Below are positions 2,967 through 25,000 of a stretch of 64,000 bases of DNA, one piece after another. The notes beneath the pieces are model-generated. The model made no database searches. It had not been told where the DNA came from and saw nothing but the letters and a program-made list of their open reading frames with translations. The stretch spans positions 56,699,997 to 56,763,996 of the forward strand of contig NC_089851.1 in the NCBI RefSeq assembly GCF_036373705.1, given 5' to 3'. Made by a program: the position numbers and the translations under genes. The stretch's first letter is position 1; every line of letters begins with the position of its first letter. This DNA comes from Amia ocellicauda. Lineage: Eukaryota > Chordata > Actinopteri > Amiiformes > Amiidae.

Positions 2967-3066
2967 CGTATGTTGCATTCAACAACAAAGAAAATCGTGT
3001 GCTGGAAATGATTTTTGGCAACTGTGAAGGAACTGCACGACTGCAGCAACCACAACACCTCTGTCT

Positions 3067-3140
3067 GTCTCTGTGGCGCAATCGGTCAGCGTGTTTGGCT
3101 GTTAACCAAAAGGATGGTGGTTTGAATCCACCCAGGGACG
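3067..3140 (+). tRNA. tRNA-Asn(GTT), cassette 1, B-box variant
   Basis: This 74-nt gene decodes AAC/AAU codons and is charged by asparaginyl-tRNA synthetase. The cloverleaf folds with acceptor GTCTCTG/CAGGGAC, a D-arm, anticodon stem TTTGG/CCAAA and T-stem GGTGG/CCACC. Anticodon GTT is at 3101-3103 and discriminator G at 3140, as expected for tRNA-Asn. There is no intron and no CCA. The A box is at 3074-3085 and the B box at 3119-3129. The B box reads GGTTTGAATCC, so the near-invariant C56 is T (3123), which removes the G19-C56 contact and should weaken TFIIIC binding. The D-stem also has a G-U pair (10-25). A T4 terminator follows at once. I call it a tRNA gene of doubtful activity. Confidence 0.93.
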
Positions 3141-3146
3141 GCCCAC

Positions 3147-3150
3147 TTTT
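3147..3150 (+). terminator. Pol III terminator of tRNA-Asn 1
   Basis: TTTT starting 7 nt after the tRNA 3' end and followed by a C-rich run. This is the canonical position for RNA polymerase III termination. Confidence 0.85.
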
Positions 3151-3247
3151 CCCCCCGCCCCTTGTTATTGTTTCTACTTCTGGCGGACAGCTTGCCAGAC
3201 TGTGGCTACAGTAACCTTAAGCTGCTTGCTGTGGATGGCCATCTTGC

Positions 3248-3252
3248 AAAAA
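3248..3252 (-). terminator. Probable Pol III terminator of tRNA-Thr(TGT) 1
   Basis: TTTTT on the minus strand is the first T-run of four or more after the gene. It lies about 52 nt beyond the tRNA 3' end, which implies an unusually long 3' trailer. Confidence 0.6.
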
Positions 3253-3304
3253 TGTATTGAGCGTTTAGAAACTTCCTTTCCATTGCCTAGGCCAACATAA
3301 ACCA

Positions 3305-3378
3305 AGGCACTGCTGGGAGTCGAACCCAGGGTTTCCTGTTTACAAGACAGGCGCTTTGACCAACTAAGCCACGGTGCC
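3305..3378 (-). tRNA. tRNA-Thr(TGT), cassette 1
   Basis: This 74-nt minus-strand gene reads ACA (and by wobble other ACN) threonine codons. Anticodon stem CCTGT/ACAGG encloses loop CTTGTAA, with anticodon TGT at 3342-3344. T-arm CTGGG/CCCAG and B box GGTTCGACTCC match consensus. The acceptor GGCACCG/CAGTGCC has a C6-A67 mismatch, present in all six copies. The body resembles the neighbouring tRNA-Thr(AGT), with about nine differences over 74 nt on hand alignment, so it looks like an AGT-family gene whose anticodon changed to TGT. It is convergent with tRNA-Asn 1. Upstream on its own strand lies the (AAAAC)n tract. Confidence 0.93.
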
Positions 3379-3420
3379 AGGACTCTCCCATTCCCCAGTG
3401 CCTACACTCAGGCGTAAGGC

Positions 3421-3451
<31 letters not shown>

Positions 3452-3521
3452 CAAAACAAAACAAAACAAAACAAAACAAAACAAAACAAAACAAAACAAA
3501 ACAAAACAAAACAAAACAAAA
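3421..3521. repeat. (AAAAC)n microsatellite, cassette 1 (101 bp)
   Basis: Pure pentanucleotide tract of about 20 units between the two Thr tRNA genes, on the 5' side of tRNA-Thr(TGT). Its length varies among cassettes: 101, 21, 96, 116, 116 and 86 bp. Being free of stops in most frames, it creates spurious reading frames such as a KTKQN repeat. Confidence 0.98.
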
Positions 3522-3576
3522 TCTGGATGCAGACTGCAACAAAGGAAGCACACAGAGGTGAAAACGTAAGGTTGAC

Positions 3577-3593
3577 GGGAGCAACAAGCTCCC
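3577..3593. other. Small perfect inverted repeat between the Thr genes
   Basis: GGGAGC and GCTCCC (6 bp each) around a 5-nt AACAA loop, present in every cassette. It lies in the spacer between tRNA-Thr(AGT) and (AAAAC)n. No T-run follows it on either strand, so it is not an obvious terminator; function unknown. Confidence 0.5.
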
Positions 3594-3746
3594 TGTTGCG
3601 ACTGTCCAGGGGCGGCAATGGGAATTGGACGTTGGCCGTAGCGCGTGTCCTTTGGGCTCTGGTTCTTCTTTACAAACCGGCGTCTGTCCAGTTGGCTTTC
3701 CGGTTCATTACGTCCTCTGATGGCTTTACGATAAGCCTATCTTGCT

Positions 3747-3750
3747 AAAA
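3747..3750 (-). terminator. Probable Pol III terminator of tRNA-Thr(AGT) 1
   Basis: TTTT on the minus strand, about 58 nt beyond the tRNA 3' end and the first T4 there. A bulged hairpin (3766-3784, stem GAAGC/GCTTC) lies in the trailer. Confidence 0.55.
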
Positions 3751-3807
3751 CTGATGGTCGACAAAGCGGAAGCACAAGCTTCGCAAGGAGCACAGAAAGC
3801 CCGCCTA

Positions 3808-3881
3808 AGGCACCGCTGGGATTTGAACCCAGGACCTCCTGTTTACTAGACAGGCGCTTTAACCAGCTAAGCCACGGCGCC
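3808..3881 (-). tRNA. tRNA-Thr(AGT), cassette 1
   Basis: This 74-nt minus-strand gene has anticodon AGT at 3845-3847, which would be IGU after A34 deamination and read ACU/ACC/ACA. The acceptor GGCGCCG/CGGTGCC is fully paired with one G-T wobble. D-loop AGCTGGTTA keeps G18G19, anticodon stem is CCTGT/ACAGG, and T-arm CTGGG/CCCAG has loop TTCAAAT, so purine 57 is A. The gene closely resembles vertebrate tRNA-Thr(AGT). It starts about 24 bp from the right cassette edge, so its 5' flank on the minus strand is a CAG run and then satellite. It looks intact. Confidence 0.96.
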
Positions 3882-3904
3882 AAATCTGCCGCTGCTGCTG
3901 CTGA

Positions 3905-6900
3905 TAGTAGAATAACAGCAGATCACGGACCGCTGTCAATCAGGTTCTTGCCTTGCCATCCATCCATCCATCCATCTATCTATGACTCTCAATATCTAAC
4001 TCTCTTGCTTGCTATCGCTCCCCCAATGGTCAGTAGCATAGTAGCATAACAGCAGATCACGGACCACTGTCAATCAGGTGCTTGCCTTGCCATCCATCCA
4101 TCCATCTGTCTATCTATCTATCTATGACTCTTGACATCTAACTCTCTTGCTTGCTATCGCTCCCCCAATGGTCAGAAGCAAAGTAGCATAACAGCAGATC
4201 ACGGACCACTGTCAATCAGATGCTTGCCTTGCCGTCCATCCATCCATCCATCCATCTATCTATCTATGACTCTTGATATCTAACTCTCTTGCTTGCTATC
4301 GCTCCCCCAATGGTCAGAAGCATAGTATCATAACAGCAGATCACAGACCACTGTCAATCAGATTCTTGCCTTGCCGTCCATCCATCCATCTATCTATCTA
4401 TCTATCTATGACTCTTGATATCTAACTCTCTTGCTTGCTATCGCTCCCCCAATGGTCAGTAGCATTGTAGCATAACAGCAGATCACGGACCACTGTCAAT
4501 CAGATGCTTGCCTTGCCGTCCATCCATCCATCTATCTATCTATCTATCTATGACTCTTGATATCTAACTCTCTTGCTTGCTATCGCTCCCCCAATGGTCA
4601 GTAGCATTGTAGCATAACAGCAGATCACGGACCACTGTCAATCAGATGCTTGCCTTGCCGTCCATCCATCCATCTATCTATCTATCTATCTATGACTCTT
4701 GATATCTAACTCTCTTGCTTGCTATCGCTCCCCCAATGGTCAGTAGCATTGTAGCATAACAGCAGATCACGGACCACTGTCAATCAGATGCTTGCCTTGC
4801 CGTCCATCCATCCATCCATCCATCTATCTATCTATGACTCTTGATATCTAACTCTCTTGCTTGCTATCGCTCCCCCAATGGTCAGAAGCAAAGTAGCATA
4901 ACAGCAGATCACGGACCACTGTCAATCAGATGCTTGCCTTGCCGTCCATCCATCCATCCATCCATCTATCTATCTATGACTCTTGATATCTAACTCTCTT
5001 GCTTGCTATCGCTCCCCCAATGGTCAGTAGCATAGTAGCATAACAGCAGATCACGGACCACTGTCAATCAGATGCTTGCCTTGCCGTCCATCCATCCATC
5101 TATCTATCTATCTATCTATGACTCTTGATATCTAACTCTCTTGCTTGCTATCGCTCCCCCAATGGTCAGTAGCATAGTAGCATAACAGCAGATCACGGAC
5201 CACTGTCACTCAGATGCTTGCCTTGCCGTCCATCCATCCATCCATCTATCTATCTATCTATCAATGACGATATCTAACTCTCTTGCTTGCTATCGCTCCC
5301 CCAATGGTCAGTAGCATAGTAGCATAACAGCAGATCACGGACCACTGTCAATCAGATGCTTGCCTTGCCGTCCATCCATCCATCCATCTATCTATCAATC
5401 TATCAATGACTCTCGATATCTAACTCTCTTACTTGCTATCGCTCCCCCAATGGTCAGTAGCATAGTAGCATAACAGCAGATCACGGACCACTGTCAATCA
5501 GATGCTTGCCTTGCCGTCCATCCATCCATCTATCTATCTATCTATCTATGACTCTTGATATCTAACTCTCTTGCTTGCTATCGCTCCCCCAATGGTCAGT
5601 AGCATTGTAGCATAACAGCAGATCACGGACCACTGTCAATCAGATGCTTGCCTTGCCGTCCATCCATCCATCTATCTATCTATCTATCTATGACTCTTGA
5701 TATCTAACTCTCTTGCTTGCTATCGCTCCCCCAATGGTCAGTAGCATTGTAGCATAACAGCAGATCACGGACCACTGTCAATCAGATGCTTGCCTTGCCG
5801 TCCAAACATCCATCTATCTATCTATCTATCTATGACTCTTGATATCTAACTCTCTTGCTTGCTATCGCTCCCCCAATGGTCAGTAGCATTGTAGCATAAC
5901 AGCAGATCACGGACCACTGTCAATCAGATGCTTGCCTTGCCGTCCATCCATCCATCTATCTATGACTCTTGATATCTAACTCTCTTGCTTGCTATCGCTC
6001 CCCCAATGGTCAGTAGCATTGTAGCATAACAGCAGATCACGGACCACTGTCAATCAGATGCTTGCCTTGCCGTCCATCCATCCATCTATCTATCTATCAA
6101 TGACTCTCGATATCTAACTCTCTTGCTTGCTATCGCTCCCCCGATGGTCAGTAGCATAGTAGCATAACAGCAGATCACGGACCACTGTCAATCAGGTGCT
6201 TGCCTTGCCGTCCATACATCCATCTGTCTATCTATCTATCTATGACTCTTGACATCTAACTCTCTTGCTTGCTATCGCTCCCCCAATGCTCAGAAGCAAA
6301 GTAGCATAACAGCAGATCACGGACCACTGTCAATCAGATGCTTGCCTTGCCGTCCATCCATCCATCTATCTATCTATCTATCTATGACTCTTGATATCTA
6401 ACTCTCTTGCTTGCTATCGCTCCCCCAATGGTCAGTAGCATTGTAGCATAACAGCAGATCACGGACCACTGTCAATCAGATGCTTGCCTTGCCGTCCATC
6501 CATACATCTATCTATCTATCTATCTATGACTCTTGATATCTAACTCTCTTGCTTGCTATCGCTCCCCCAATGGTCAGTAGCATTGTAGCATAACAGCAGA
6601 TCACGGACCACTGTCAATCAGATGCTTGCCTTGCCGTCCATCCATCCATCTATCTATCTATCTATCAATGACTCTCGATATCTAACTCTCTTACTTGCTA
6701 TCGCTCCCCCAATGGTCAGTAGCATAGTAGCATAACAGCAGATCACGGACCACTGTCAATCAGATGCTTGCCTTGCCGTCCATCCATCCATCCATCTATC
6801 TATCTATGACTCTTGTTATCTAACTCTCTTGCTTGCTATCGCTCCCCCAATGGTCAGTAGCATAGTAGCATAACAGCAGATCACGGAACACTGTCAATCA

Positions 6901-6998
6901 GATGCTTGCCTTGCCGTCCATCCATCCATCTATCTATCTATCTATCTATGACTCTCGATATCTAACTCTCTTGCTTGCTATCGCTCCCCCAATGGTCA
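3905..6998. repeat. Satellite array segment 2, about 21 monomers
   Basis: Starts in mid-monomer at TAGTAGAATAAC and ends at GGTCA before cassette 2. It is rich in CTTGAT / AGCATTG monomers. It includes less common variants: GTCTATC heads with TTGACATC and AGAAGCAAAG (near 4110 and 6220), and AGTATCATAAC (near 4325). One monomer has lost 4 bp in its body (CAATGACGATATC at 5262-5274). A monomer near 5800 has TCCAAACATCC in its head. Block-B counterpart: 15491-18730, which has one extra monomer. No gene is seen. Confidence 0.97.
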
Positions 6999-7098
6999 CG
7001 TATGTTGCATTCAACGACAAAGAAAATCGTGTGCTGGAAATGATTTTTGGCAACTGTGAAGGAACTGCATGACTGCAGCAACCAACACTCCTCTGTCT

Positions 7099-7172
7099 GT
7101 CTCTGTGGCGCAATCGGTCAGCGCGTTTGGCTGTTAACCAAAAGGATGGTGGTTCGAATCCACCCAGGGACG
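7099..7172 (+). tRNA. tRNA-Asn(GTT), cassette 2, canonical
   Basis: This is the cleanest Asn copy type. Acceptor GTCTCTG/CAGGGAC pairs fully with one T-G wobble, and D-stem GCGC/GCGC is fully Watson-Crick. D-loop AATCGGTCA keeps G18G19, anticodon GTT is at 7133-7135, and the B box GGTTCGAATCC is perfect. The discriminator is G, with no intron and no CCA. A terminator follows 7 nt downstream. It lacks both the T-loop change of cassettes 1/4 and the acceptor mismatch of cassettes 3/6, so with its twin in cassette 5 it is the likeliest functional Asn gene here. Confidence 0.97.
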
Positions 7173-7178
7173 GCCCAC

Positions 7179-7182
7179 TTTT
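7179..7182 (+). terminator. Pol III terminator of tRNA-Asn 2
   Basis: TTTT starting 7 nt after the tRNA 3' end, before a C-rich run. Confidence 0.85.
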
Positions 7183-7279
7183 CCCCCCGCCCCTTGTTAT
7201 TGTTTCTAATTCTGGCGGACAGCTTGCCAGACTGTGGCTACAGTAACCTTAAGCTGCTTGCTGTGGATGGCCATCTTGC

Positions 7280-7284
7280 AAAAA
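7280..7284 (-). terminator. Probable Pol III terminator of tRNA-Thr(TGT) 2
   Basis: First minus-strand T5 run, about 52 nt beyond the tRNA 3' end. Confidence 0.6.
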
Positions 7285-7336
7285 TGTATTGAGCGTTTAG
7301 AAACTTCCTTTCCATTGCCTAGGCCAACATAAACCA

Positions 7337-7410
7337 AGGCACTGCTGGGAGTCGAACCCAGGGTTTCCTGTTTACAAGACAGGTGCTTTGACCAACTAAG
7401 CCACGGTGCC
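7337..7410 (-). tRNA. tRNA-Thr(TGT), cassette 2
   Basis: A 74-nt threonine tRNA with anticodon TGT at 7374-7376. It differs from the cassette 1 copy by A instead of G at position 26, between the D and anticodon stems (plus-strand GACAGGTGC). A26 is common in eukaryotic tRNAs, so this is not a defect. The C6-A67 acceptor mismatch is present. The variable loop AAACC keeps C48 for the Levitt pair with G15. B box GGTTCGACTCC is intact. The A26 state is shared with cassettes 5 and 6 but not 3, which suggests exchange between cassettes. Confidence 0.94.
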
Positions 7411-7452
7411 AGGACTCTCCCATTCCCCAGTGCCTACACTCAGGCGTAAGGC

Positions 7453-7473
7453 AAAAAACAAAACAAAACAAAA
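7453..7473. repeat. (AAAAC)n microsatellite, cassette 2 (21 bp, contracted)
   Basis: About four units only, against about 17-23 in the other five cassettes. The flanks on both sides are intact, so this is a length contraction (or the unexpanded form). Confidence 0.97.
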
Positions 7474-7698
7474 TCTGGATGCAGGCTGCAACAAAGGAAG
7501 CACACAGAGGTGAAAACCTAAGGTTGACGGGAGCAACAAGCTCCCTGTTGCGACTGTCCAGGGGCGGCAATGGGAATTGGACGTTGGCCGTAGCGCGTGT
7601 CCTTTGGGTTCTGGTTCTTCTTTACAAACCGGCGTCTGTCCAGTTGGCTTTCCGGTTCATTACGTCCTCTGATGGCTTTACGATAAGCCTATCTTGCT

Positions 7699-7702
7699 AA
7701 AA
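7699..7702 (-). terminator. Probable Pol III terminator of tRNA-Thr(AGT) 2
   Basis: First minus-strand T4, about 58 nt beyond the tRNA 3' end, behind the same bulged trailer hairpin as in cassette 1. Confidence 0.55.
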
Positions 7703-7759
7703 CTGATGGTCGACAAAGCGGAAGCACAAGCTTCGCAAGGAGCACAGAAAGCCCGCCTA

Positions 7760-7833
7760 AGGCACCGCTGGGATTTGAACCCAGGACCTCCTGTTTACTA
7801 GACAGGCGCTTTAAACAACTAAGCCACGGTGCC
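7760..7833 (-). tRNA. tRNA-Thr(AGT), cassette 2, D-loop lesion
   Basis: A 74-nt tRNA with anticodon AGT at 7797-7799. The acceptor is GGCACCG/CGGTGCC, fully Watson-Crick, because position 4 is A rather than the G of cassettes 1 and 3. That 5' end matches the tRNA-Thr(TGT) genes. The D-loop reads AGTTGTTTA, so G19 is T (plus-strand A at 7815). G19 normally pairs with C56 to join the D and T loops and is part of the A box, so both folding and promoter strength may suffer. The twin in cassette 5 has the same change. It could be a weak gene or an early pseudogene. Confidence 0.9.
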
Positions 7834-7856
7834 AAATCTGCCGCTGCTGCTGCTGA

Positions 7857-9187
7857 TAGTAGAATAACAGCAGATCACGGACCGCTGTCAATCAGGTTCT
7901 TGCCTTGCCGTCCATCCATCCATCCATCTATCTATGACTCTCAATATCTAACTCTCTTGCTTGCTATCGCTCCCCCAATGGTCAGTAGCATAGTAGCATA
8001 ACAGCAGATCACGGACCACTGTCAATCAGGTGCTTGCCTTGCCATCCATCCATCCATCTGTCTATCTATCTATCTATGACTCTTGACATCTAACTCTCTT
8101 GCTTGCTATCGCTCCCCCAATGGTCAGAAGCAAAGTAGCATAACAGCAGATCACGGACCACTGTCAATCAGATGCTTGCCTTGCCGTCCATCCATCCATC
8201 CATCCATCTATCTATCTATGACTCTTGATATCTAACTCTCTTGCTTGCTATCGCTCCCCCAATGGTCAGTAGCATAGTATCATAACAGCAGATCACGGAC
8301 CACTGTCAATCAGATGCTTGCCTTGCCGTCCATCCATCCATCTATCTATCTATCTATGACTCTTGATATCTAACTCTCTTGCTTGCTATCGCTCCCCCAA
8401 TGGTCAGTAGCATTGTAGCATAACAGCAGATCACGGACCACTGTCAATCAGATGCTTGCCTTGCCGTCCATCCATCCATCTATCTATCTATCTATCTATG
8501 ACTCTCGATATCTAACTCTCTTGCTTGCTATCGCTCCCCCAATGGTCAGTAGCATTGTAGCATAACAGCAGATCACGGACCACTGTCAATCAGATGCTTG
8601 CCTTGCCGTCCATCCATCCATCCATCTATCTATCTATCTATCTATGACTCTTGATATCTAACTCTCTTGCTTGCTATCGCTCCCCCAATGGTCAGTAGCA
8701 TTGTAGCATAACAGCAGATCACGGACCACTGTCAATCAGATGCTTGCCTTGCCGTCCATCCATCCATCTATCTATCTATCTATCAATGACTCTCGATATC
8801 TAACTCTCTTGCTTGCTATCGCTCCCCCAATGGTCAGTAGCATAGTAGCATAACAGCAGATCACGGACCACTGTCAATCAGGTGCTTGCCTTGCCGTCCA
8901 TCCATCCATCTGTCTATCTATCTATCTATGACTCTTGACATCTAACTCTCTTGCTTGCTATCGCTCCCCCAATGGTCAGAAGCAAAGTAGCATAACAGCA
9001 GATCACGGACAACTGTCAATCAGATGCTTGCCTTGCCGTCCATCCATCCATCCATCCATCTATCTATCTATGACTCTTGATATCTAACTCTCTTGCTTGC
9101 TATCGCTCCCCCAATGGTCAGTAGCATAGTATCATAACAGCAGATCACGGACCACTGTCAATCAGATGCTTGCCTTGCCGTCCATCC

Positions 9188-9249
<62 letters not shown>

Positions 9250-9298
9250 GACTCTCGATATCTAACTCTCTTGCTTGCTATCGCTCCCCCAATGGTCA
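7857..9298. repeat. Satellite array segment 3, about 10 monomers
   Basis: Begins with the same right-flank monomer variants as after cassette 1 (TAGTAGAATAAC, GACCGCTG). Monomer order resembles the first part of segment 2, so the cassette plus its following monomers was probably copied as one unit. It ends with an expanded TCTA tract (9189-9248) just before cassette 3. No gene is seen. Confidence 0.97.
9189..9248. repeat. Expanded (TCTA)15 tract before cassette 3
   Basis: 60 bp of pure TCTA, preceded by only two TCCA units. Other monomers have about 2-7 TCTA units here. The block-B twin (21016-21071) has 14 units. Confidence 0.97.
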
Positions 9299-9398
9299 CG
9301 TATGTTGCATTCAACGACAAAGAAAATCGTGTGCTGGAAATGATTTTTGGCAACTGTGAAGGAACTGCACGACTGCAGCAACCAAAACACCTCTGTCT

Positions 9399-9472
9399 GT
9401 CACTGTGGCGCAATCGGTCAGCGCGTTTGGCTGTTAACCAAAAGGATGGTGGTTCGAATCCACCCAGGGACG
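9399..9472 (+). tRNA. tRNA-Asn(GTT), cassette 3, acceptor mismatch
   Basis: A 74-nt tRNA with anticodon GTT at 9433-9435. The 5' acceptor strand is GTCACTG rather than GTCTCTG, putting A4 (9402) opposite G69, a purine-purine mismatch in the middle of the acceptor stem. The other stems, G18G19, the T-loop TTCGAAT and the B box are intact, and a T4 terminator follows. The internal promoter should work, but the product may be processed or charged poorly. The cassette 6 copy has the same change, so it predates the block duplication. Confidence 0.92.
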
Positions 9473-9478
9473 GCCCAC

Positions 9479-9482
9479 TTTT
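9479..9482 (+). terminator. Pol III terminator of tRNA-Asn 3
   Basis: TTTT starting 7 nt after the tRNA 3' end, before a C-rich run. Confidence 0.85.
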
Positions 9483-9579
9483 CCCCCCGCCCCTTGTTAT
9501 TGTTTCTACTTCTGGCGGACAGCTTGCCAGACTGTGGCTACAGTAACCTTAAGCTGCTTGCTGTGGACGGCCATCTTGC

Positions 9580-9584
9580 AAAAA
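9580..9584 (-). terminator. Probable Pol III terminator of tRNA-Thr(TGT) 3
   Basis: First minus-strand T5 run, about 52 nt beyond the tRNA 3' end. Confidence 0.6.
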
Positions 9585-9636
9585 TGTATTGAGCGTTTAG
9601 AAACTTCCTTTCCATTGCCTAGGCCAACATAAACCA

Positions 9637-9710
9637 AGGCACTGCTGGGAGTCGAACCCAGTGTTTCCTGTTTACAAGACAGGCGCTTTGACCAACTAAG
9701 CCACGGTGCC
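9637..9710 (-). tRNA. tRNA-Thr(TGT), cassette 3, variable-loop change
   Basis: A 74-nt tRNA with anticodon TGT at 9674-9676. Besides the family-wide C6-A67 mismatch, the variable loop is AAACA instead of AAACC, so C48 is A (plus-strand T at 9662). Position 48 normally forms the reverse Watson-Crick Levitt pair with G15, so this copy may have a looser tertiary core. Position 26 is G, as in cassettes 1 and 4. The B box is intact. Cassette 6 shares the C48A change. Confidence 0.91.
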
Positions 9711-9752
9711 AGGACTCTCCCATTCCCCAGTGCCTACACTCAGGCATAAGGC

Positions 9753-9783
<31 letters not shown>

Positions 9784-10208: not shown

Positions 10209-10231
10209 AAATCTGCCGCTGCTGCTGCTGA

Positions 10232-15490: not shown

Positions 15491-18400
15491 TAGTAGAATA
15501 ACAGCAGATCACGGACCGCTGTCAATCAGGTTCTTGCCTTGCCATCCATCCATCCATCCATCTATCTATGACTCTCAATATCTAACTCTCTTGCTTGCTA
15601 TCGCTCCCCCAATGGTCAGTAGCATAGTAGCATAACAGCAGATCACGGACCACTGTCAATCAGGTGCTTGCCTTGCCATCCATCCATCCATCTGTCTATC
15701 TATCTATCTATGACTCTTGACATCTAACTCTCTTGCTTGCTATCGCTCCCCCAATGGTCAGAAGCAAAGTAGCATAACAGCAGATCACGGACCACTGTCA
15801 ATCAGATGCTTGCCTTGCCGTCCATCCATCCATCCATCCATCTATCTATCTATGACTCTTGATATCTAACTCTCTTGCTTGCTATCGCTCCCCCAATGGT
15901 CAGAAGCATAGTATCATAACAGCAGATCACAGACCACTGTCAATCAGATTCTTGCCTTGCCGTCCATCCATCCATCTATCTATCTATCTATCTATGACTC
16001 TTGATATCTAACTCTCTTGCTTGCTATCGCTCCCCCAATGGTCAGTAGCATTGTAGCATAACAGCAGATCACGGACCACTGTCAATCAGATGCTTGCCTT
16101 GCCGTCCATCCATCCATCTATCTATCTATCTATCTATGACTCTTGATATCTAACTCTCTTGCTTGCTATCGCTCCCCCAATGGTCAGTAGCATTGTAGCA
16201 TAACAGCAGATCACGGACCACTGTCAATCAGATGCTTGCCTTGCCGTCCATCCATCCATCTATCTATCTATCTATCTATGACTCTTGATATCTAACTCTC
16301 TTGCTTGCTATCGCTCCCCCAATGGTCAGTAGCATTGTAGCATAACAGCAGATCACGGACCACTGTCAATCAGATGCTTGCCTTGCCGTCCATCCATCCA
16401 TCCATCCATCTATCTATCTATGACTCTTGATATCTAACTCTCTTGCTTGCTATCGCTCCCCCAATGGTCAGAAGCAAAGTAGCATAACAGCAGATCACGG
16501 ACCACTGTCAATCAGATGCTTGCCTTGCCGTCCATCCATCCATCCATCCATCTATCTATCTATGACTCTTGATATCTAACTCTCTTGCTTGCTATCGCTC
16601 CCCCAATGGTCAGTAGCATAGTAGCATAACAGCAGATCACGGACCACTGTCAATCAGATGCTTGCCTTGCCGTCCATCCATCCATCTATCTATCTATCTA
16701 TCTATGACTCTTGATATCTAACTCTCTTGCTTGCTATCGCTCCCCCAATGGTCAGTAGCATAGTAGCATAACAGCAGATCACGGACCACTGTCACTCAGA
16801 TGCTTGCCTTGCCGTCCATCCATCCATCCATCTATCTATCTATCTATCAATGACTCTCGATATCTAACTCTCTTGCTTGCTATCGCTCCCCCAATGGTCA
16901 GTAGCATAGTAGCATAACAGCAGATCACGGACCACTGTCAATCAGATGCTTGCCTTGCCGTCCATCCATCCATCTATCTATCTATCTATCTATGACTCTC
17001 GATATCTAACTCTCTTGCTTGCTATCGCTCCCCCAATGGTCAGTAGCATAGTAGCATAACAGCAGATCACGGACCACTGTCAATCAGATGCTTGCCTTGC
17101 CGTCCATCCATCCATCCATCTATCTATCAATCTATCAATGACTCTCGATATCTAACTCTCTTACTTGCTATCGCTCCCCCAATGGTCAGTAGCATAGTAG
17201 CATAACAGCAGATCACGGACCACTGTCAATCAGATGCTTGCCTTGCCGTCCATCCATCCATCTATCTATCTATCTATCTATGACTCTTGATATCTAACTC
17301 TCTTGCTTGCTATCGCTCCCCCAATGGTCAGTAGCATTGTAGCATAACAGCAGATCACGGACCACTGTCAATCAGATGCTTGCCTTGCCGTCCATCCATC
17401 CATCTATCTATCTATCTATCTATGACTCTTGATATCTAACTCTCTTGCTTGCTATCGCTCCCCCAATGGTCAGTAGCATTGTAGCATAACAGCAGATCAC
17501 GGACCACTGTCAATCAGATGCTTGCCTTGCCGTCCATCCATCCATCTATCTATCTATCTATCTATGACTCTTGATATCTAACTCTCTTGCTTGCTATCGC
17601 TCCCCCAATGGTCAGTAGCATTGTAGCATAACAGCAGATCACGGACCACTGTCAATCAGATGCTTGCCTTGCCGTCCATCCATCCATCTATCTATGACTC
17701 TTGATATCTAACTCTCTTGCTTGCTATCGCTCCCCCAATGGTCAGTAGCATTGTAGCATAACAGCAGATCACGGACCACTGTCAATCAGATGCTTGCCTT
17801 GCCGTCCATCCATCCATCTATCTATCTATCAATGACTCTCGATATCTAACTCTCTTGCTTGCTATCGCTCCCCCGATGGTCAGTAGCATAGTAGCATAAC
17901 AGCAGATCACGGACCACTGTCAATCAGGTGCTTGCCTTGCCGTCCATACATCCATCTGTCTATCTATCTATCTATGACTCTTGACATCTAACTCTCTTGC
18001 TTGCTATCGCTCCCCCAATGCTCAGAAGCAAAGTAGCATAACAGCAGATCACGGACCACTGTCAATCAGATGCTTGCCTTGCCGTCCATCCATCCATCTA
18101 TCTATCTATCTATCTATGACTCTTGATATCTAACTCTCTTGCTTGCTATCGCTCCCCCAATGGTCAGTAGCATTGTAGCATAACAGCAGATCACGGACCA
18201 CTGTCAATCAGATGCTTGCCTTGCCGTCCATCCATACATCTATCTATCTATCTATCTATGACTCTTGATATCTAACTCTCTTGCTTGCTATCGCTCCCCC
18301 AATGGTCAGTAGCATTGTAGCATAACAGCAGATCACGGACCACTGTCAATCAGATGCTTGCCTTGCCGTCCATCCATCCATCTATCTATCTATCTATCAA

Positions 18401-18730
18401 TGACTCTCGATATCTAACTCTCTTACTTGCTATCGCTCCCCCAATGGTCAGTAGCATAGTAGCATAACAGCAGATCACGGACCACTGTCAATCAGATGCT
18501 TGCCTTGCCGTCCATCCATCCATCCATCTATCTATCTATGACTCTTGTTATCTAACTCTCTTGCTTGCTATCGCTCCCCCAATGGTCAGTAGCATAGTAG
18601 CATAACAGCAGATCACGGAACACTGTCAATCAGATGCTTGCCTTGCCGTCCATCCATCCATCTATCTATCTATCTATCTATGACTCTCGATATCTAACTC
18701 TCTTGCTTGCTATCGCTCCCCCAATGGTCA
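15491..18730. repeat. Satellite array segment 5, about 22 monomers
   Basis: Block-B counterpart of 3905-6998 with the same rare variants in the same order: AGTATCATAAC near 15910, CCCCGATGG near 17873, CAATGCTCAG near 18017 and CTTGTTATC near 18544. It lacks the 4-bp body deletion and the AAACATCC head change of block A. It has one additional 142-bp monomer at 16961-17102. No gene is seen. Confidence 0.97.
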
Positions 18731-18830
18731 CGTATGTTGCATTCAACGACAAAGAAAATCGTGTGCTGGAAATGATTTTTGGCAACTGTGAAGGAACTGC
18801 ATGACTGCAGCAACCAACACTCCTCTGTCT

Positions 18831-18904
18831 GTCTCTGTGGCGCAATCGGTCAGCGCGTTTGGCTGTTAACCAAAAGGATGGTGGTTCGAATCCACCCAGG
18901 GACG
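18831..18904 (+). tRNA. tRNA-Asn(GTT), cassette 5, canonical
   Basis: Identical to the cassette 2 Asn gene: anticodon GTT at 18865-18867, fully paired D-stem, B box GGTTCGAATCC and discriminator G. It carries neither the B-box change of cassettes 1/4 nor the acceptor mismatch of 3/6. Terminator T4 follows at 18911. Together with 7099-7172 it is one of only two unblemished Asn genes in the window. Confidence 0.97.
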
Positions 18905-18910
18905 GCCCAC

Positions 18911-18914
18911 TTTT
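18911..18914 (+). terminator. Pol III terminator of tRNA-Asn 5
   Basis: TTTT starting 7 nt after the tRNA 3' end. Confidence 0.85.
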
Positions 18915-19011
18915 CCCCCCGCCCCTTGTTATTGTTTCTACTTCTGGCGGACAGCTTGCCAGACTGTGGCTACAGTAACCTTAAGCTGCTTGCTGTGGAT
19001 GGCCATCTTGC

Positions 19012-19016
19012 AAAAA
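19012..19016 (-). terminator. Probable Pol III terminator of tRNA-Thr(TGT) 5
   Basis: First minus-strand T5 run, about 52 nt beyond the tRNA 3' end. Confidence 0.6.
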
Positions 19017-19068
19017 TGTATTGAGCGTTTAGAAACTTCCTTTCCATTGCCTAGGCCAACATAAACCA

Positions 19069-19142
19069 AGGCACTGCTGGGAGTCGAACCCAGGGTTTCC
19101 TGTTTACAAGACAGGTGCTTTGACCAACTAAGCCACGGTGCC
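19069..19142 (-). tRNA. tRNA-Thr(TGT), cassette 5
   Basis: Same as the cassette 2 copy: anticodon TGT at 19106-19108, A26, C48 kept, perfect B box, and the C6-A67 acceptor mismatch. It lies just left of the presumed conversion tract. The A26 site at 19112 gives the tract's left limit, because cassettes 1/4 have G26. Confidence 0.94.
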
Positions 19143-19184
19143 AGGACTCTCCCATTCCCCAGTGCCTACACTCAGGCGTAAGGC

Positions 19185-19215
<31 letters not shown>

Positions 19216-19300
19216 CAAAACAAAACAAAACAAAACAAAACAAAACAAAACAAAACAAAACAAAACAAAACAAAACAAAACAAAACAAAACAAAACAAAA
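19185..19300. repeat. (AAAAC)n microsatellite, cassette 5 (116 bp)
   Basis: Same length as in cassette 4, and 95 bp longer than in the positional twin cassette 2. This is the core of the mosaic segment. Confidence 0.98.
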
Positions 19301-19525
19301 TCTGGATGCAGACTGCAACAAAGGAAGCACACAGAGGTGAAAACGTAAGGTTGACGGGAGCAACAAGCTCCCTGTTGCGACTGTCCAGGGGCGGCAATGG
19401 GAATTGGACGTTGGCCGTAGCGCGTGTCCTTTGGGTTCTGGTTCTTCTTTACAAACCGGCGTCTGTCCAGTTGGCTTTCCGGTTCATTACGTCCTCTGAT
19501 GGCTTTACGATAAGCCTATCTTGCT

Positions 19526-19529
19526 AAAA
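19526..19529 (-). terminator. Probable Pol III terminator of tRNA-Thr(AGT) 5
   Basis: First minus-strand T4, about 58 nt beyond the tRNA 3' end. Confidence 0.55.
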
Positions 19530-19586
19530 CTGATGGTCGACAAAGCGGAAGCACAAGCTTCGCAAGGAGCACAGAAAGCCCGCCTA

Positions 19587-19660
19587 AGGCACCGCTGGGA
19601 TTTGAACCCAGGACCTCCTGTTTACTAGACAGGCGCTTTAAACAACTAAGCCACGGTGCC
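19587..19660 (-). tRNA. tRNA-Thr(AGT), cassette 5, D-loop lesion
   Basis: Carries the same G19T change as cassette 2 (plus-strand A at 19642) and the same Watson-Crick acceptor GGCACCG/CGGTGCC. Anticodon AGT is at 19624-19626. The anticodon and T arms are normal. Two copies sharing the lesion show it has been carried through the 11.8-kb duplication. Reduced activity is likely because the A box and the D-loop/T-loop contact are both touched. Confidence 0.9.
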
Positions 19661-19683
19661 AAATCTGCCGCTGCTGCTGCTGA

Positions 19684-21014
19684 TAGTAGAATAACAGCAG
19701 ATCACGGACCGCTGTCAATCAGGTTCTTGCCTTGCCGTCCATCCATCCATCCATCTATCTATGACTCTCAATATCTAACTCTCTTGCTTGCTATCGCTCC
19801 CCCAATGGTCAGTAGCATAGTAGCATAACAGCAGATCACGGACCACTGTCAATCAGGTGCTTGCCTTGCCATCCATCCATCCATCTGTCTATCTATCTAT
19901 CTATGACTCTTGACATCTAACTCTCTTGCTTGCTATCGCTCCCCCAATGGTCAGAAGCAAAGTAGCATAACAGCAGATCACGGACCACTGTCAATCAGAT
20001 GCTTGCCTTGCCGTCCATCCATCCATCCATCCATCTATCTATCTATGACTCTTGATATCTAACTCTCTTGCTTGCTATCGCTCCCCCAATGGTCAGTAGC
20101 ATAGTATCATAACAGCAGATCACGGACCACTGTCAATCAGATGCTTGCCTTGCCGTCCATCCATCCATCTATCTATCTATCTATGACTCTTGATATCTAA
20201 CTCTCTTGCTTGCTATCGCTCCCCCAATGGTCAGTAGCATTGTAGCATAACAGCAGATCACGGACCACTGTCAATCAGATGCTTGCCTTGCCGTCCATCC
20301 ATCCATCTATCTATCTATCTATCTATGACTCTCGATATCTAACTCTCTTGCTTGCTATCGCTCCCCCAATGGTCAGTAGCATTGTAGCATAACAGCAGAT
20401 CACGGACCACTGTCAATCAGATGCTTGCCTTGCCGTCCATCCATCCATCCATCTATCTATCTATCTATCTATGACTCTTGATATCTAACTCTCTTGCTTG
20501 CTATCGCTCCCCCAATGGTCAGTAGCATTGTAGCATAACAGCAGATCACGGACCACTGTCAATCAGATGCTTGCCTTGCCGTCCATCCATCCATCTATCT
20601 ATCTATCTATCAATGACTCTCGATATCTAACTCTCTTGCTTGCTATCGCTCCCCCAATGGTCAGTAGCATAGTAGCATAACAGCAGATCACGGACCACTG
20701 TCAATCAGGTGCTTGCCTTGCCGTCCATCCATCCATCTGTCTATCTATCTATCTATGACTCTTGACATCTAACTCTCTTGCTTGCTATCGCTCCCCCAAT
20801 GGTCAGAAGCAAAGTAGCATAACAGCAGATCACGGACAACTGTCAATCAGATGCTTGCCTTGCCGTCCATCCATCCATCCATCCATCTATCTATCTATGA
20901 CTCTTGATATCTAACTCTCTTGCTTGCTATCGCTCCCCCAATGGTCAGTAGCATAGTATCATAACAGCAGATCACGGACCACTGTCAATCAGATGCTTGC
21001 CTTGCCGTCCATCC

Positions 21015-21072
<58 letters not shown>

Positions 21073-21121
21073 GACTCTCGATATCTAACTCTCTTGCTTG
21101 CTATCGCTCCCCCAATGGTCA
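19684..21121. repeat. Satellite array segment 6, about 10 monomers
   Basis: Counterpart of 7857-9298 with the same monomer order, including the GACAACTG variant (near 20835, block A near 9010) and the long TCTA tract before the cassette. No gene is seen. Confidence 0.97.
21016..21071. repeat. Expanded (TCTA)14 tract before cassette 6
   Basis: 56 bp of pure TCTA, one unit shorter than the block-A twin, so the tract has changed since the duplication. Confidence 0.97.
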
Positions 21122-21221
21122 CGTATGTTGCATTCAACGACAAAGAAAATCGTGTGCTGGAAATGATTTTTGGCAACTGTGAAGGAACTGCACGACTGCA
21201 GCAACCAAAACACCTCTGTCT

Positions 21222-21295
21222 GTCACTGTGGCGCAATCGGTCAGCGCGTTTGGCTGTTAACCAAAAGGATGGTGGTTCGAATCCACCCAGGGACG
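21222..21295 (+). tRNA. tRNA-Asn(GTT), cassette 6, acceptor mismatch
   Basis: Same as the cassette 3 copy: GTCACTG at the 5' end gives A4 opposite G69 (A at 21225). Anticodon GTT is at 21256-21258, the B box is intact and the T4 terminator is present. Presumably transcribed, but the mature tRNA may be unstable or degraded; this is inference from the fold only. Confidence 0.92.
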
Positions 21296-21301
21296 GCCCA
21301 C

Positions 21302-21305
21302 TTTT
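21302..21305 (+). terminator. Pol III terminator of tRNA-Asn 6
   Basis: TTTT starting 7 nt after the tRNA 3' end. Confidence 0.85.
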
Positions 21306-21402
21306 CCCCCCGCCCCTTGTTATTGTTTCTACTTCTGGCGGACAGCTTGCCAGACTGTGGCTACAGTAACCTTAAGCTGCTTGCTGTGGACGGCCATCTT
21401 GC

Positions 21403-21407
21403 AAAAA
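21403..21407 (-). terminator. Probable Pol III terminator of tRNA-Thr(TGT) 6
   Basis: First minus-strand T5 run, about 52 nt beyond the tRNA 3' end. Confidence 0.6.
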
Positions 21408-21459
21408 TGTATTGAGCGTTTAGAAACTTCCTTTCCATTGCCTAGGCCAACATAAACCA

Positions 21460-21533
21460 AGGCACTGCTGGGAGTCGAACCCAGTGTTTCCTGTTTACAA
21501 GACAGGTGCTTTGACCAACTAAGCCACGGTGCC
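21460..21533 (-). tRNA. tRNA-Thr(TGT), cassette 6, variable-loop change
   Basis: Anticodon TGT is at 21497-21499. It has the cassette 3 C48A change (plus-strand T at 21485) and the common C6-A67 mismatch, but A26 (plus-strand T at 21507) as in cassettes 2 and 5. The combination makes it a recombinant of type 3 and type 2 states within 23 bp, or a recurrent G-to-A change. Three non-standard sites make it the most altered Thr(TGT) copy. Confidence 0.91.
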
Positions 21534-21575
21534 AGGACTCTCCCATTCCCCAGTGCCTACACTCAGGCATAAGGC

Positions 21576-21606
<31 letters not shown>

Positions 21607-21661
21607 CAAAACAAAACAAAACAAAACAAAACAAAACAAAACAAAACAAAACAAAACAAAA
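21576..21661. repeat. (AAAAC)n microsatellite, cassette 6 (86 bp)
   Basis: About 17 units, two fewer than in cassette 3. Confidence 0.98.
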
Positions 21662-21886
21662 TCTGGATGCAGGCTGCAACAAAGGAAGCACACAGAGGTG
21701 AAAACGTAAGGTTGACGGGAGCAACAAGCTCCCTGTTGCGACTGTCCAGGGGCGGCAATGGGAATTGGACGTTGGCCGTAGCGCGTGTCCTTTGGGTTCT
21801 GGTTCTTCTTTACAAACCGGCGTCTGTCCAGTTGGCTTTCCGGTTCATTACGTCCTCTGATGGCTTTACGATAAGCCTATCTTGCT

Positions 21887-21890
21887 AAAA
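21887..21890 (-). terminator. Probable Pol III terminator of tRNA-Thr(AGT) 6
   Basis: First minus-strand T4, about 58 nt beyond the tRNA 3' end. Confidence 0.55.
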
Positions 21891-21947
21891 CTGATGGTCG
21901 ACAAAGCGGAAGCACAAGCTTCGCAAGGAGCACAGAAAGCCCGCCTA

Positions 21948-22021
21948 AGGCACCGCTGGGATTTGAACCCAGGACCTCCTGTTTACTAGACAGGCGCTTT
22001 AACCAACTAAGCCACGGCGCC
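21948..22021 (-). tRNA. tRNA-Thr(AGT), cassette 6
   Basis: Identical to the cassette 3 copy: anticodon AGT at 21985-21987, acceptor GGCGCCG/CGGTGCC, D-loop AGTTGGTTA and T-loop TTCAAAT. All stems are paired and conserved loop positions are present. It looks functional. It is the last gene in the window; satellite alone lies beyond its 5' side. Confidence 0.97.
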
Positions 22022-25000
22022 AAATCTGCCGCTGCTGCTGCTGATAGTAGCATAACAGCAGATCACGGACCACTGTCAATCAGGTGCTTGCCTTGCCGTC
22101 CATCCATCCATCCATCTATCTATCTATCTATCTATGACTCTTGACATCTAACTCTCTTGCTTGCTATCGCTCCCCCAATGGTCAGAAGCAAAGTAGCATA
22201 ACAGCAGATCACGGACCACTGTCAATCAGATGCTTGCCTTGCCGTCCATCCATCCATCCATCCATCTATCTATCTATGACTCTTGATATCTAACTCTCTT
22301 GCTTGCTATCGCTCCCCCAATGGTCAGTAGCATAGTATCATAACAGCAGATCACGGACCACTGTCAATCAGATGCTTGCCTTGCCGTCCATCCATCCATC
22401 TATCTATCTATCTATGACTCTTGATATCTAACTCTCTTGCTTGCTATCGCTCCCCCAATGGTCAGTAGCATTGTAGCATAACAGCAGATCACGGACCACT
22501 GTCAATCAGATGCTTGCCTTGCCGTCCATCCATCCATCTATCTATCTATCTATCTATGACTCTCGATATCTAACTCTCTTGCTTGCTATCGCTCCCCCAA
22601 TGGTCAGTAGCATTGTAGCATAACAGCAGATCACGGACCACTGTCAATCAGATGCTTGCCTTGCCGTCCATCCATCCATCTATCTATCTATCTATCTATG
22701 ACTCTTGATATCTAACTCTCTTGCTTGCTATCGCTCCCCCAATGGTCAGTAGCATAGTATCATAACAGCAGATCACGGACCACTGTCAATCAGATGCTTG
22801 CCTTGCCGTCCATCCATCCATCTATCTATCTATCTATGACTCTTGATATCTAACTCTCTTGCTTGCTATCGCTCCCCCAATGGTCAGTAGCATTGTAGCA
22901 TAACAGCAGATCACGGACCACTGTCAATCAGATGCTTGCCTTGCCGTCCATCCATCCATCTATCTATCTATCTATCTATGACTCTCGATATCTAACTCTC
23001 TTGCTTGCTATCGCTCCCCCAATGGTCAGTAGCATTGTAGCATAACAGCAGATCACGGACCACTGTCAATCAGATGCTTGCCTTGCCGTCCATCCATCCA
23101 TCTATCTATCTATCTATCTATGACTCTTGATATCTAACTCTCTTGCATGCTATCGCTCCCCCAATGGTCAGTAGCATTGTAGCATAACAGCAGATCACGG
23201 ACCACTGTCAATCAGATGCTTGCCTTGCCGTCCATCCATCCATCTATCTATCTATCTATCAATGACTCTCGATATCTAACTCTCTTGCTTGCTATCGCTC
23301 CCCCAATGGTCAGTAGCATAGTAGCATAACAGCAGATCACGGACCACTGTCAATCAGGTGCTTGCCTTGCCGTCCATCCATCCATCTGTCTATCTATCTA
23401 TCTATGACTCTTGACATCTAACTCTCTTGCTTGCTATCGCTCCCCCAATGGTCAGAAGCAAAGTAGCATAACAGCAGATCACGGACCACTGTCAATCAGA
23501 TGCTTGCCTTGCCGTCCATCCATCCATCCATCCAATTATCTATCTATGACTCTTGATATCTAACTCTCTTGCTTGCTATCGCACCCCCAATGGTCAGTAG
23601 CATAGTATCATAACAGCAGATCACGGACCACTGTCAATCAGATGCTTGCCTTGCCGTCCATCCATCAATCTATCTACCTATCTATCTATCTATGACTCTT
23701 GATATCTAACTCTCTTGCTTGCTATCGCTCCCCCAATGGTCAGTAGCATAGTAGCATAACAGCAGATCACGGACCACTGTCAATCAGGTGCTTGCCTTGC
23801 CATCCATCCATCCATCTGTCTATCTATCTATCTATGACTCTTGACATCTAACTCTCTTGCTTGCTATCGCTCCCCCAATGGTCAGAAGCAAAGTAGCATA
23901 ACAGCAGATCACGGACCACTGTCAATCAGATGCTTGCCTTGCCGTCCATCCATCCATCCATCCATCTATCTATCTATGACTCTTGATATCTAACTCTCTT
24001 GCTTGCTATCGCTCCCCCAATGGTCAGTAGCATAGTATCATAACAGCAGATCACGGACCACTGTCAATCAGATGCTTGCCTTGCCGTCCATCCATCCATC
24101 TATCTATCTATCTATCTATGACTCTTGATATCTAACTCTCTTGCTTGCTATCGCTCCCCCAATGGTCAGTAGCATTGTAGCATAACAGCAGATCACGGAC
24201 CACTGTCAATCAGATGCTTGCCTTGCCGTCCATCCATCCATCTATCTATCTATCTATCTATGACTCTTGATATCTAACTCTCTTGCTTGCTATCGCTCCC
24301 CCAATGGTCAGTAGCATTGTAGCATAACAGCAGATCACGGACCACTGTCAATCAGATGCTTGCCTTGCCGTCCATCCATCCATCTATCTATCTATCTATC
24401 TATGACTCTCGATATCTAACTCTCTTGCTTGCTATCGCTCCCCCAATGGTCAGTAGCATTGTAGCATAACAGCAGATCACGGACCACTGTCAATCAGATG
24501 CTTGCCTTGCCGTCCATCCATCCATCTATCTATCTATCTATCTATGACTCTTGATATCTAACTCTCTTGCTTGCTATCGCTCCCCCAATGGTCAGTAGCA
24601 TTGTAGCATAACAGCAGATCACGGACCACTGTCAATCAGATGCTTGCCTTGCCGTCCATCCATCCACCCATCCATCTACCTATCTATGACTCTTGATATC
24701 TAACTCTCTTGCTTGCTATTGCTCCCCCAATGGTCAGTAGCATTGTAGCATAACAGCAGATCACGGACCAATGTCAATCAGATGCTTGCCTTGCCGTCCA
24801 TCCATCCATCTATCTATCTATCTATCTATGACTCTCGATATCTAACTCTCTTGCTTGCTATCGCTCCCCCAATGGTCAGTAGCATAGTAGCATAACAGCA
24901 GATCACGGACCACTGTCAATCAGATGCTTGCCTTGCCGTCCATCCATCCATCCATCTATCTATCAATCTATCAATGACTCTCGATATCTAACTCTCTTAC

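Follow-up and report, generated by a model that had tools for sequence, protein, structure and literature searches.

The Xenopus tDNA repeat represents tandem amplification of a tRNA gene unit and, like the tRNA arrays of Entamoeba, has a fixed unit length, and in newts the histone gene clusters are separated by long satellite tracts. The arrays of Entamoeba, an organism named in PMC2888827 and PMC4041453, likewise consist of tandemly amplified tRNA gene units. The human 1q23.3 tRNA VNTR has a 7.3-kb unit with five tRNA genes (PMC4041453), and the Arabidopsis SYY cluster is built from a tandemly duplicated Ser-Tyr-Tyr tRNA unit with variable and pseudogene copies and DNA methylation (PMC12308677). 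On the right arm of zebrafish chromosome 4, Region-2 holds most tRNA genes together with the near-exclusive satellite MOSAT-2 (PMC11075544).

The locus analysed here, a stretch of 64,000 nucleotides of Amia ocellicauda DNA (the window), carries cassettes of tRNA genes within a satellite. As in newts, gene clusters lie within long tracts of a short-monomer satellite, the newt genes being histone genes. Unlike the Entamoeba and Xenopus arrays, the cassettes follow no constant unit length and the numbers of monomers between them vary: 52 spacings between the starts of neighbouring cassettes measure 1,457–7,729 bp within the fetched stretches, and three larger ones (11,707, 15,542 and 18,401) cross DNA outside them. 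The human VNTR displays a similar arrangement of tRNA genes on both strands of a tandem, copy-variable unit, although the word satellite is absent from the available part of its description (PMC4041453). The SYY cluster also shares a tandemly duplicated tRNA gene unit and differs in the same way, its tandem gene units being presented without the word satellite in the text at hand (PMC12308677). Zebrafish Region-2, which gathers tRNA genes and satellite on one chromosome arm, may be a parallel to the Amia locus, but its accessible description is one of co-location and not of a fixed joint between tRNA cassette and satellite (PMC11075544). No compound unit of tRNA cassette and satellite was found in the literature searched, which was available in part, and the satellite words had no match there. 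A sequence-only reading of the window had called such a compound repeat unusual, and this is agreed; its further suggestion of a distinct class of tRNA gene amplification is too strong, since tRNA arrays and tRNA- and satellite-rich chromosome arms are already known. In its 635 copies with a single left joint, its duplicated blocks and its filled and empty paralogues, the locus provides a countable record of genes riding satellite amplification, and it bears on the origins of satellites and on how tRNA gene number changes without single-copy selection.

Cassettes and their joints with the satellite

The satellite extends over the window (1..64000) and consists mostly of 142/146-bp monomers, of which 406 are whole and 90 distinct, each composed of a ~110-bp body and an ATCC/ATCT tract. 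The 142-bp unit is present 442.7 times in a head-to-tail array. A known RNA family was rejected as the source of the satellite, Rfam giving no match for 1..2940 at E values up to 1. ARAGORN and Rfam (66.3–73.1 bits) each identify 18 tRNA genes in the window, all accounted for by six sets of Asn-GTT (+), Thr-TGT (−) and Thr-AGT (−). The six cassettes, 858–953 bp long and in a single orientation, sit at one phase of the satellite, and none occurs in the final 42 kb. Cassette C1 (2967..3904) comprises tRNA-Asn GTT at 3066..3143 (+; equivalents start at 7098, 9398, 14637, 18830 and 21221), tRNA-Thr TGT at 3305..3378 (−; 7337, 9637, 14876, 19069 and 21460) and tRNA-Thr AGT at 3808..3881 (−; 7760, 10135, 15394, 19587 and 21948), the 5' end of the last lying 23 bp from the satellite junction. 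C2 (6999..7856) has a contracted AAAAC run and C3 (9299..10231) an 11-like half monomer as its right flank, while C4 (14538..15490), C5 (18731..19683) and C6 (21122..22044) are copies of C1, C2 and C3, respectively; all six are on the + strand. The T loop/B box of tRNA-Asn is GGTTTGAATCC in C1 and C4 and GGTTCGAATCC in the other four.

On the left all six cassettes are preceded by ...CCCCCAATGGTCA and on the right they are followed by TAGTAG[A/C]ATAACAG. Entry after GGTCA and exit before TAGTAG, as read from the letters earlier, are therefore true for 6/6, and the outer bounds of 2967 and 22044 agree. GTAGCA, or in a few cases GAAGCA, follows GGTCA/GCTCA in 400/400 other whole monomers and is missing at the cassettes. 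The claim that the same 6 bp were replaced holds in so far as these six bases are absent at all six cassettes, but replacement is only one parsing: the junctions may also be taken as a clean insertion, with GGTC on one side and a single AGTAGCAT on the other, because AGTAGCAT is tandemly doubled in most monomers. Two kinds of right flank are present, TAGTAGAATAAC... at C1, C2, C4 and C5 and TAGTAGCATAAC... at C3 and C6. Clean excision of cassettes is not seen, since the 6-bp-deleted form occurs in 0/400 other whole monomers in the window, and was thus ruled out as the source of empty monomers. Target-site duplications are likewise absent at the six window copies, as had been stated; C1 has no matching inverted ends, and its ORFs are short or repeat-coded (up to 124 aa). 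On these grounds a mobile element was rejected.

Block duplication within the array

The array displays amplification of cassettes with their flanks, a seamed block duplication, right flanks that have been exchanged, a paralogue without a cassette and, in some copies, right joints other than the usual one. Block copy 1 (67..10915, its left limit possibly falling outside the window) contains C1–C3 with their satellite, and block copy 2 (11638..22726), delimited by shared monomer strings and block alignment, contains C4–C6. The ~11-kb copies differ by 7 substitutions in 10,833 aligned bases and by 5 indels besides an end gap, the AAAAC run being omitted or shortened in the substitution counts. 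Monomer strings common to both blocks are 29 and 17 long, compared with at most 5 in 200 shuffles; there are 10 maximal repeats of 6–29 monomers, and repeats of at least 6 monomers number 0 in 200 shuffles. The pattern 1=4, 2=5, 3=6 is followed by 15/20 variable cassette sites, and C1 and C4 show 0 substitutions in 938, AAAAC length being the sole difference. These comparisons indicate that the six cassettes are three plus a block duplication. Six independent insertions, already considered implausible, are excluded because the flanking monomers are shared by the blocks.

Some sites depart from this pattern. C5 matches C4 in AAAAC length and at site 3533, and C6 matches C2 and C5 at site 3352, both possibly through gene conversion. 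Since the block duplication 5/6 events fell within the cassettes, which make up 25% of the length (p=0.005), but the events are few and two of the sites may be conversion. Between the blocks lies a chimeric monomer (type 35, 10916..11053) with a type-27 left part and a type-6-like right part, where copy 2 has type 27; it is likely the scar of a crossover between block copies. Misassembly could account for part of the near-identical array copies, but both the chimeric monomer at the seam and private differences speak against this. A cassette-free paralogue of the C3 neighbourhood (8249–10915) occupies 22729..24290, with 10 substitutions in 1,556 aligned bases when C3 is left out. The whole cassette domain (2947..24716) is set apart by a monomer subfamily of its own: of 44 monomer types, 34 are found nowhere else in the window, and the markers AGAAGCAAAG, CAGGTGCTTG and GTATCATAAC number 38 in its 114 monomers and 0 in the other 292.

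Genome-wide copies

The cassette left-end pattern has 635 matches in the 988-Mb genome (453+/182−), and again 635 (453+/182−) when GGTCA is included, with 0 in either reversed-pattern control; up to 2 mismatches were allowed, so that GGACA counts too. Because the number is unchanged when GGTCA is required, there is one left junction genome-wide at pattern level, and no cassette start lacking the satellite joint was detected. Left ends scattered over many monomer positions, named beforehand as evidence against the proposal, did not appear. The satellite core has 19,646 matches at up to 3 mismatches (control 1). Among the 100 matches listed for each pattern, every cassette and satellite place is on one contig of 63.6 Mb (contig C2), where 41 matches of a search with the cassette also lie, and listed cassette starts outside the fetched stretches come as near to one another as 891 bp; the adjoining Leu/Asp/Ser tRNA cluster is also found on other contigs.

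Of 61 left ends read, one was dropped because fewer than 150 bases separated it from the edge of its stretch, giving 60 cassettes that include the window's six; cassettes truncated at a stretch edge so that their left end is missing are not counted. All are on a single strand within each stretch, and their left joint is GGTCA in 59/60 and GGACA in 1/60. The right joint GCTGA/TAGTAG is present in 56/58 cassettes with a readable right end, two of the 60 lacking the Thr-AGT end and being excluded. The cassette is thus locked at one monomer position on its left side genome-wide, as proposed, but its right side varies. At L030 a deletion runs into the ATCT tract, and at 56884124 AAAAC is joined to satellite. 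Cut-back cassettes are found at L048, L049 and 56859228; those of L048 are 993 bp apart with two monomers between, and those of L049 are separated by 901 bp, the cut-back copy being succeeded by a partial monomer, these two loci having been picked for close spacing and not as a random sample. At 11 further places the cassette runs into the Leu/Asp/Ser cluster.

Origin and maintenance of the compound repeat

With a probability of roughly 0.8, cassettes and satellite form a compound tandem repeat that arose by one fusion and was then multiplied with its satellite part. A ~0.9-kb block of three tRNA genes would have fused to one phase of the 142-bp satellite, with founding joints GGTCA/CGTATG on the left and, as the usual form, GCTGA/TAGTAG on the right. 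Unequal crossing-over in register, duplication of blocks and gene conversion would then have multiplied the fused unit, as a part of the satellite, to >600 copies. The earlier proposal of one capture amplified with its satellite flanks fits the one left joint, the shared flanks and the block duplication. On this reading the founding event would have been a capture by end joining, with the satellite already present, and not growth of a spacer into a satellite, and the odd right joints would be later deletions. That the right joint is not unique counts against a single fusion, and a cassette captured by a satellite that was already there must have had a donor tRNA cluster, of which none was found among the 40 of 639 candidates scored. 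Pattern scans of viral and genome contig sets, which may omit the window's own genome, gave 0 matches.

A common origin of genes and satellite is a tentative alternative; growth of the satellite out of a tRNA cluster's flank, the other possibility raised in the sequence-only reading, may likewise apply. The ancestor might have been a tandem tRNA repeat of the cassette and one ~130-bp spacer (TAGTAG...GGTCA), which itself became the satellite; spacer copies would have been linked by a templated GTAGCA joint that duplicated the neighbouring GTAGCA, and the spacer would have outgrown the genes about 30 to 1 while carrying >600 cassettes in phase. The left-end count unchanged by GGTCA, the usual cassette filling a whole-monomer phase and the TAGTAG-type right joints of degenerate copies (L044) are consistent with this, and the monomer–monomer joint with its tandem AGTAGCAT is as expected of a templated joint. 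However, core matches far outnumber cassettes (19,646 vs 635), the window's last 42 kb are satellite without cassettes, and no regular one-spacer array was seen, the close pairs of L048 and L049 being cut-back copies.

Under fusion followed by multiplication, the tRNA genes would be passengers of satellite dynamics, Pol III-competent as judged by their sequence, and the cassettes, for which methylation and silencing are probable in most tissues, may provide Asn and Thr tRNA genes as a reserve of variable size. Somewhat more doubtful than a common origin is a maintained functional amplification, with copy number selected for Asn/Thr tRNA supply, for example in oocytes. All three genes keep their anticodons in 56/60 cassettes, and the window genes look transcribable, with lenient A- and B-box matches in 18/18 and TTTT at +7 of Asn. 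Zebrafish Region-2, rich in tRNA genes and satellite and carrying maternal 5S genes according to the available text, is a parallel (PMC11075544); transcription in oocytes would make the Amia locus another tRNA/satellite chromosome region to compare with it. Against selected supply, the tRNA sites are no more conserved than the spacers: variable sites are 8/226 vs 12/607 in the window, and 28/222 vs 45/593 in 57 cassettes, excluding the most diverged one (56891278), with p=0.038 toward more variation in the genes. Anticodon-changed genes and one B-box change persist among the cassettes, and CpG decay in the tRNA genes suggests methylation.

It is improbable that the Leu/Asp/Ser context is ancestral and that the satellite–satellite context arose through a single tandem duplication of it that involved AT microhomology. 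The left joint with satellite in 10/10 readable cluster-flanked copies (4 GGTCA, 6 GGACA; in one only GGTCA itself is readable) would agree with it, as would their position outside the array group in the 57-copy tree, where 57/57 array copies are on one side of a branch (SH-aLRT 96). A tree of the 5' 455 bp, whose bootstrap had not settled, places 59/59 array copies on one side of a branch (83/73), with support of 64/0 for the cluster-flanked group and five odd copies not forming one group. Both trees were rooted at midpoint only, which is weak because edge copies diverge faster, and in the second the row O_L049_1047 runs into another gene after a deletion, which makes both its long branch and the midpoint root untrustworthy. 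Cluster copies on C8, C18 and C117 have a different upstream flank, mutually similar, and no cassette in the short stretches fetched; GCTGA/TGGTC is therefore itself a joint, and this context was rejected as the native one.

The tRNA-Asn anticodon-stem pair 29-41 also speaks against cluster ancestry. Four copies located at 51–53 Mb have C-G (L044, both of L048 and the second of L049). U-G is found in the first L049 copy and in all ten cluster-flanked copies, and U-A in 59/59 array copies. The TAGTAG joint is already present in the second L049 cassette, which bears C-G. Taking C-G as the original state, the one presumed for animal tRNA-Asn, C-G, U-G and U-A form a graded series, and the group that includes the window's copies would be a younger one. 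Both changes are CpG transitions and therefore need not show selection, and a compensatory interpretation was dropped on this ground. Repeated targeting of one satellite site by a mobile element or integrase, which the single left site (635/635 at pattern level) would suit, is very improbable given the cassette ends, the missing target-site duplications and the short ORFs described above, the flanking monomers that whole blocks have in common, and the recurrence of TAGTAGAATAAC, a half-monomer variant, in 51/56 cassettes, which is not expected of independent insertions.

A compound repeat of tRNA genes and satellite

The window is a satellite array over its whole length, with a period of 142 and 442.7 copies (Tandem Repeats Finder); cutting at a fixed anchor delimits 406 whole monomers, mostly of 142 or 146 bp and belonging to 90 exact types. 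Six cassettes break the satellite (C1 to C6, starting at 2967, 6999, 9299, 14538, 18731 and 21122), each carrying tRNA-Asn(GTT) on the plus strand and tRNA-Thr(TGT) and tRNA-Thr(AGT) on the minus strand. Satellite GGTCA precedes and TAGTAG follows all six, as the sequence-only reading had described. Its further claim that 6 bp are replaced holds in that six bases present in the 400 other window monomers (GTAGCA, in a few GAAGCA) are absent around the cassettes; since most window monomers carry AGTAGCAT in two tandem copies, however, the six-base loss is one parsing, and insertion into a one-copy ancestor would be another.

This compound repeat is real, large and unusual, and known processes explain it: one fusion of the cassette with the satellite would have created a unit that was then amplified satellite-style. 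Within the accessible portions of the respective sources, zebrafish chromosome 4 Region-2 carries most tRNA genes of that genome, together with a satellite mostly confined to it and maternal 5S genes (PMC11075544); in human, the VNTR at 1q23.3 repeats a 7.3-kb unit of five tRNA genes (PMC4041453); in Arabidopsis, the SYY cluster consists of a Ser/Tyr unit that is methylated and amplified in tandem (PMC12308677); and a survey of tRNA genes across eukaryotes, published in 2010, gives Entamoeba as the sole case of tRNA tandem repeats reported by then (PMC2888827). In contrast to what these portions describe for the four systems, the cassette here sits at one fixed phase of a short satellite. No such arrangement was found in the accessible open-access literature, most subscription journals lying outside the search.

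Block duplication and probable monomer exchange in the window

The order of monomer types shows one block present twice, as C1–C3 and as C4–C6 with their satellite. The two copies share ordered strings of 29 and 17 identical monomers, compared with at most 5 in 200 order shuffles. Over 10,833 aligned bases, 7 substitutions separate them, along with three changes in AAAAC length, a single ATCT unit, one 146-bp monomer and a 3-base gap where the alignment ends. Among the 20 variable cassette sites in the window, 15 follow the pattern 1=4, 2=5, 3=6, and AAAAC length is the sole difference between C1 and C4. The AAAAC runs of cassettes C2 (7455) and C5 (19187) differ by 95 bases, C2 having the shorter one.

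Four whole monomers to the right of C3 (types 12, 27, 28 and 14) are followed by a unique monomer at 10916, whose left part is type 27 and whose right part is type-6-like, while its equivalent in the second block copy is type 27. This chimera has the form of the expected remnant of one in-register unequal crossover. The cassette domain (2947..24716) contains a private monomer subfamily, since 34 of its 44 types are, within the window, confined to it; three marker variants total 38 in its 114 monomers versus 0 in the 292 others. The right half-monomer of C3 and C6 differs in kind from that of C1, C2, C4 and C5, and 22729–24290 is a cassette-free paralogue of the C3 neighbourhood (10 substitutions in 1,556). 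Thus, cassettes seem to be gained or lost through exchange between monomers, without clean excision. The cassette-free satellite at 24717–64000 shows block repeats of 6–11 monomers at offsets of 1.0–11.5 kb, the same dynamics without tRNA genes.

Cassette joints across the genome

In the assembly (988,188,214 bases, 385 contigs; the window is contig C2:56699997-56763996), the cassette query gives at least 41 matches, all on contig C2 at 53.5–59.6 Mb and on both strands, with 40 of 639 candidates scored. The cassette left-end pattern occurs 635 times (453+182; control 0; up to 2 mismatches) and its count is unchanged when GGTCA is required before it (453+182; control 0); the satellite core occurs 19,646 times (12,664+6,982; control 1; up to 3 mismatches). 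For all three patterns, every place among the 100 matches listed is on contig C2. The left joint of 60 readable cassettes, the six window ones included, is GGTCA in 59 and GGACA in one, and GCTGA|TAGTAG is the right joint in 56 of the 58 that have that end, 51 of these sharing the variant TAGTAGAATAAC. One joint was thus multiplied together with its flanks. Counterparts of C1, C2 and C3 at 56.32–56.33 Mb are identical over the compared columns.

The proposal that cassettes are locked at one monomer position is borne out on the left but not on the right, where the joint varies. One cassette is joined into an ATCT tract (stretch L030), at 56884124 AAAAC is joined to satellite, and at 56859228 a truncated cassette lies at an array edge. 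Two-gene cassettes occur in L048 (51.77 Mb) and L049 (52.80 Mb). Both in L048, which are neighbours on contig C2 with a Thr gene of anticodon CGT, and the first in L049 are cut back with satellite joined elsewhere, the L048 joint being GGTA|AGTAGCATAGTAG with the six bases retained; in the second L049 cassette (from 1048; C2:52.7965 Mb), a deletion reaching from the Thr-TGT gene to the Thr-AGT gene has left a single Thr gene.

The cassette end plus TGGTCTTTGAGACCC gives 13 matches, of which 11 are cassettes directly abutting another tRNA cluster, of Leu and Asp plus Ser or Ala (up to 2 mismatches, all contig C2; ARAGORN). Ten such cassettes have a readable left end, GGTCA in 4 and GGACA in 6, one of the ten being readable for GGTCA alone. 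Copies of the Leu/Asp cluster on contigs C8, C18 and C117 have mutually similar upstream flanks of their own (...GGTGGCGCGGT|TGGTC), with no cassette beside them in the short stretches fetched, so the cassette-to-cluster junction is a second joint at the same cassette end as the TAGTAG joint. It lies 23 bp from the Thr-AGT 5' end, adjoining a CTG run, and this site may be break-prone. The cluster (L022 6279-7957, L034, L047), itself duplicated, consists of Leu(CAG) and Asp(GTC) plus a long third gene, which is called as Ser AGA in L034 and L047 and as Ala AGC in L022, L036 and L037. The cluster is present on several contigs, with further matches on C8, C52, C117, C135 and C143. Sequence adjoining the arrays, spotted by eye at about 4300-5900 of L020 and at the end of L022, is presumably Tc1-like transposon.

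Direction of change and condition of the tRNA genes

In a whole-cassette tree, 57 array copies and 10 cluster-flanked copies lie on opposite sides of a branch (SH-aLRT 96). A tree on the 5' 455 bp, whose bootstrap had not settled, places 59 array copies together with support 83/73 and the cluster-flanked group at 64/0. At the tRNA-Asn anticodon-stem pair 29-41 (our own numbering), four copies have C-G (L044, both in L048 and the second in L049), two of them with further stem changes; the pair is U-G in all 10 cluster-flanked copies and the first L049 cassette, and U-A in 59 of 59 array copies. If C-G is the old state, as in animal tRNA-Asn, the window copies would fall within the youngest cassette group. 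Satellite on both cassette sides would also be old, because the second L049 cassette combines the C-G pair with the TAGTAG joint and degenerate L044 copies have similar right joints. These observations support this direction and do not prove it, since both trees are midpoint-rooted and edge copies evolve apart from homogenised arrays.

Under lenient criteria, all 18 window tRNA genes have A- and B-box matches. TTTT lies 7 bases downstream of tRNA-Asn, and in the two Thr genes not before +53 and +58. The T loop is altered in C1 and C4. All three anticodons are intact in 56 of 60 cassettes, the others being two without Thr-AGT, one with an Asn gene changed to CTT (Lys; L022 3860-3937, cassette C2:56889760) and one with a Thr-TGT gene changed to TCT (Arg; cassette C2:57191776; both ARAGORN). 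Variable sites number 8/226 in tRNA and 12/607 in spacers within the window (Fisher p=0.21), and 28/222 and 45/593 in 57 cassettes, where the genes are the more variable (p=0.038). Transitions are in excess at CpG: within the window they occur in 8/80 CpG columns versus 3/366 of the remaining C/G columns (p=8e-5), and in the 57 cassettes in 20/78 versus 17/346 (p=2.7e-7). We conclude that no constraint is visible on individual cassette copies and that germ-line methylation of the region is probable.
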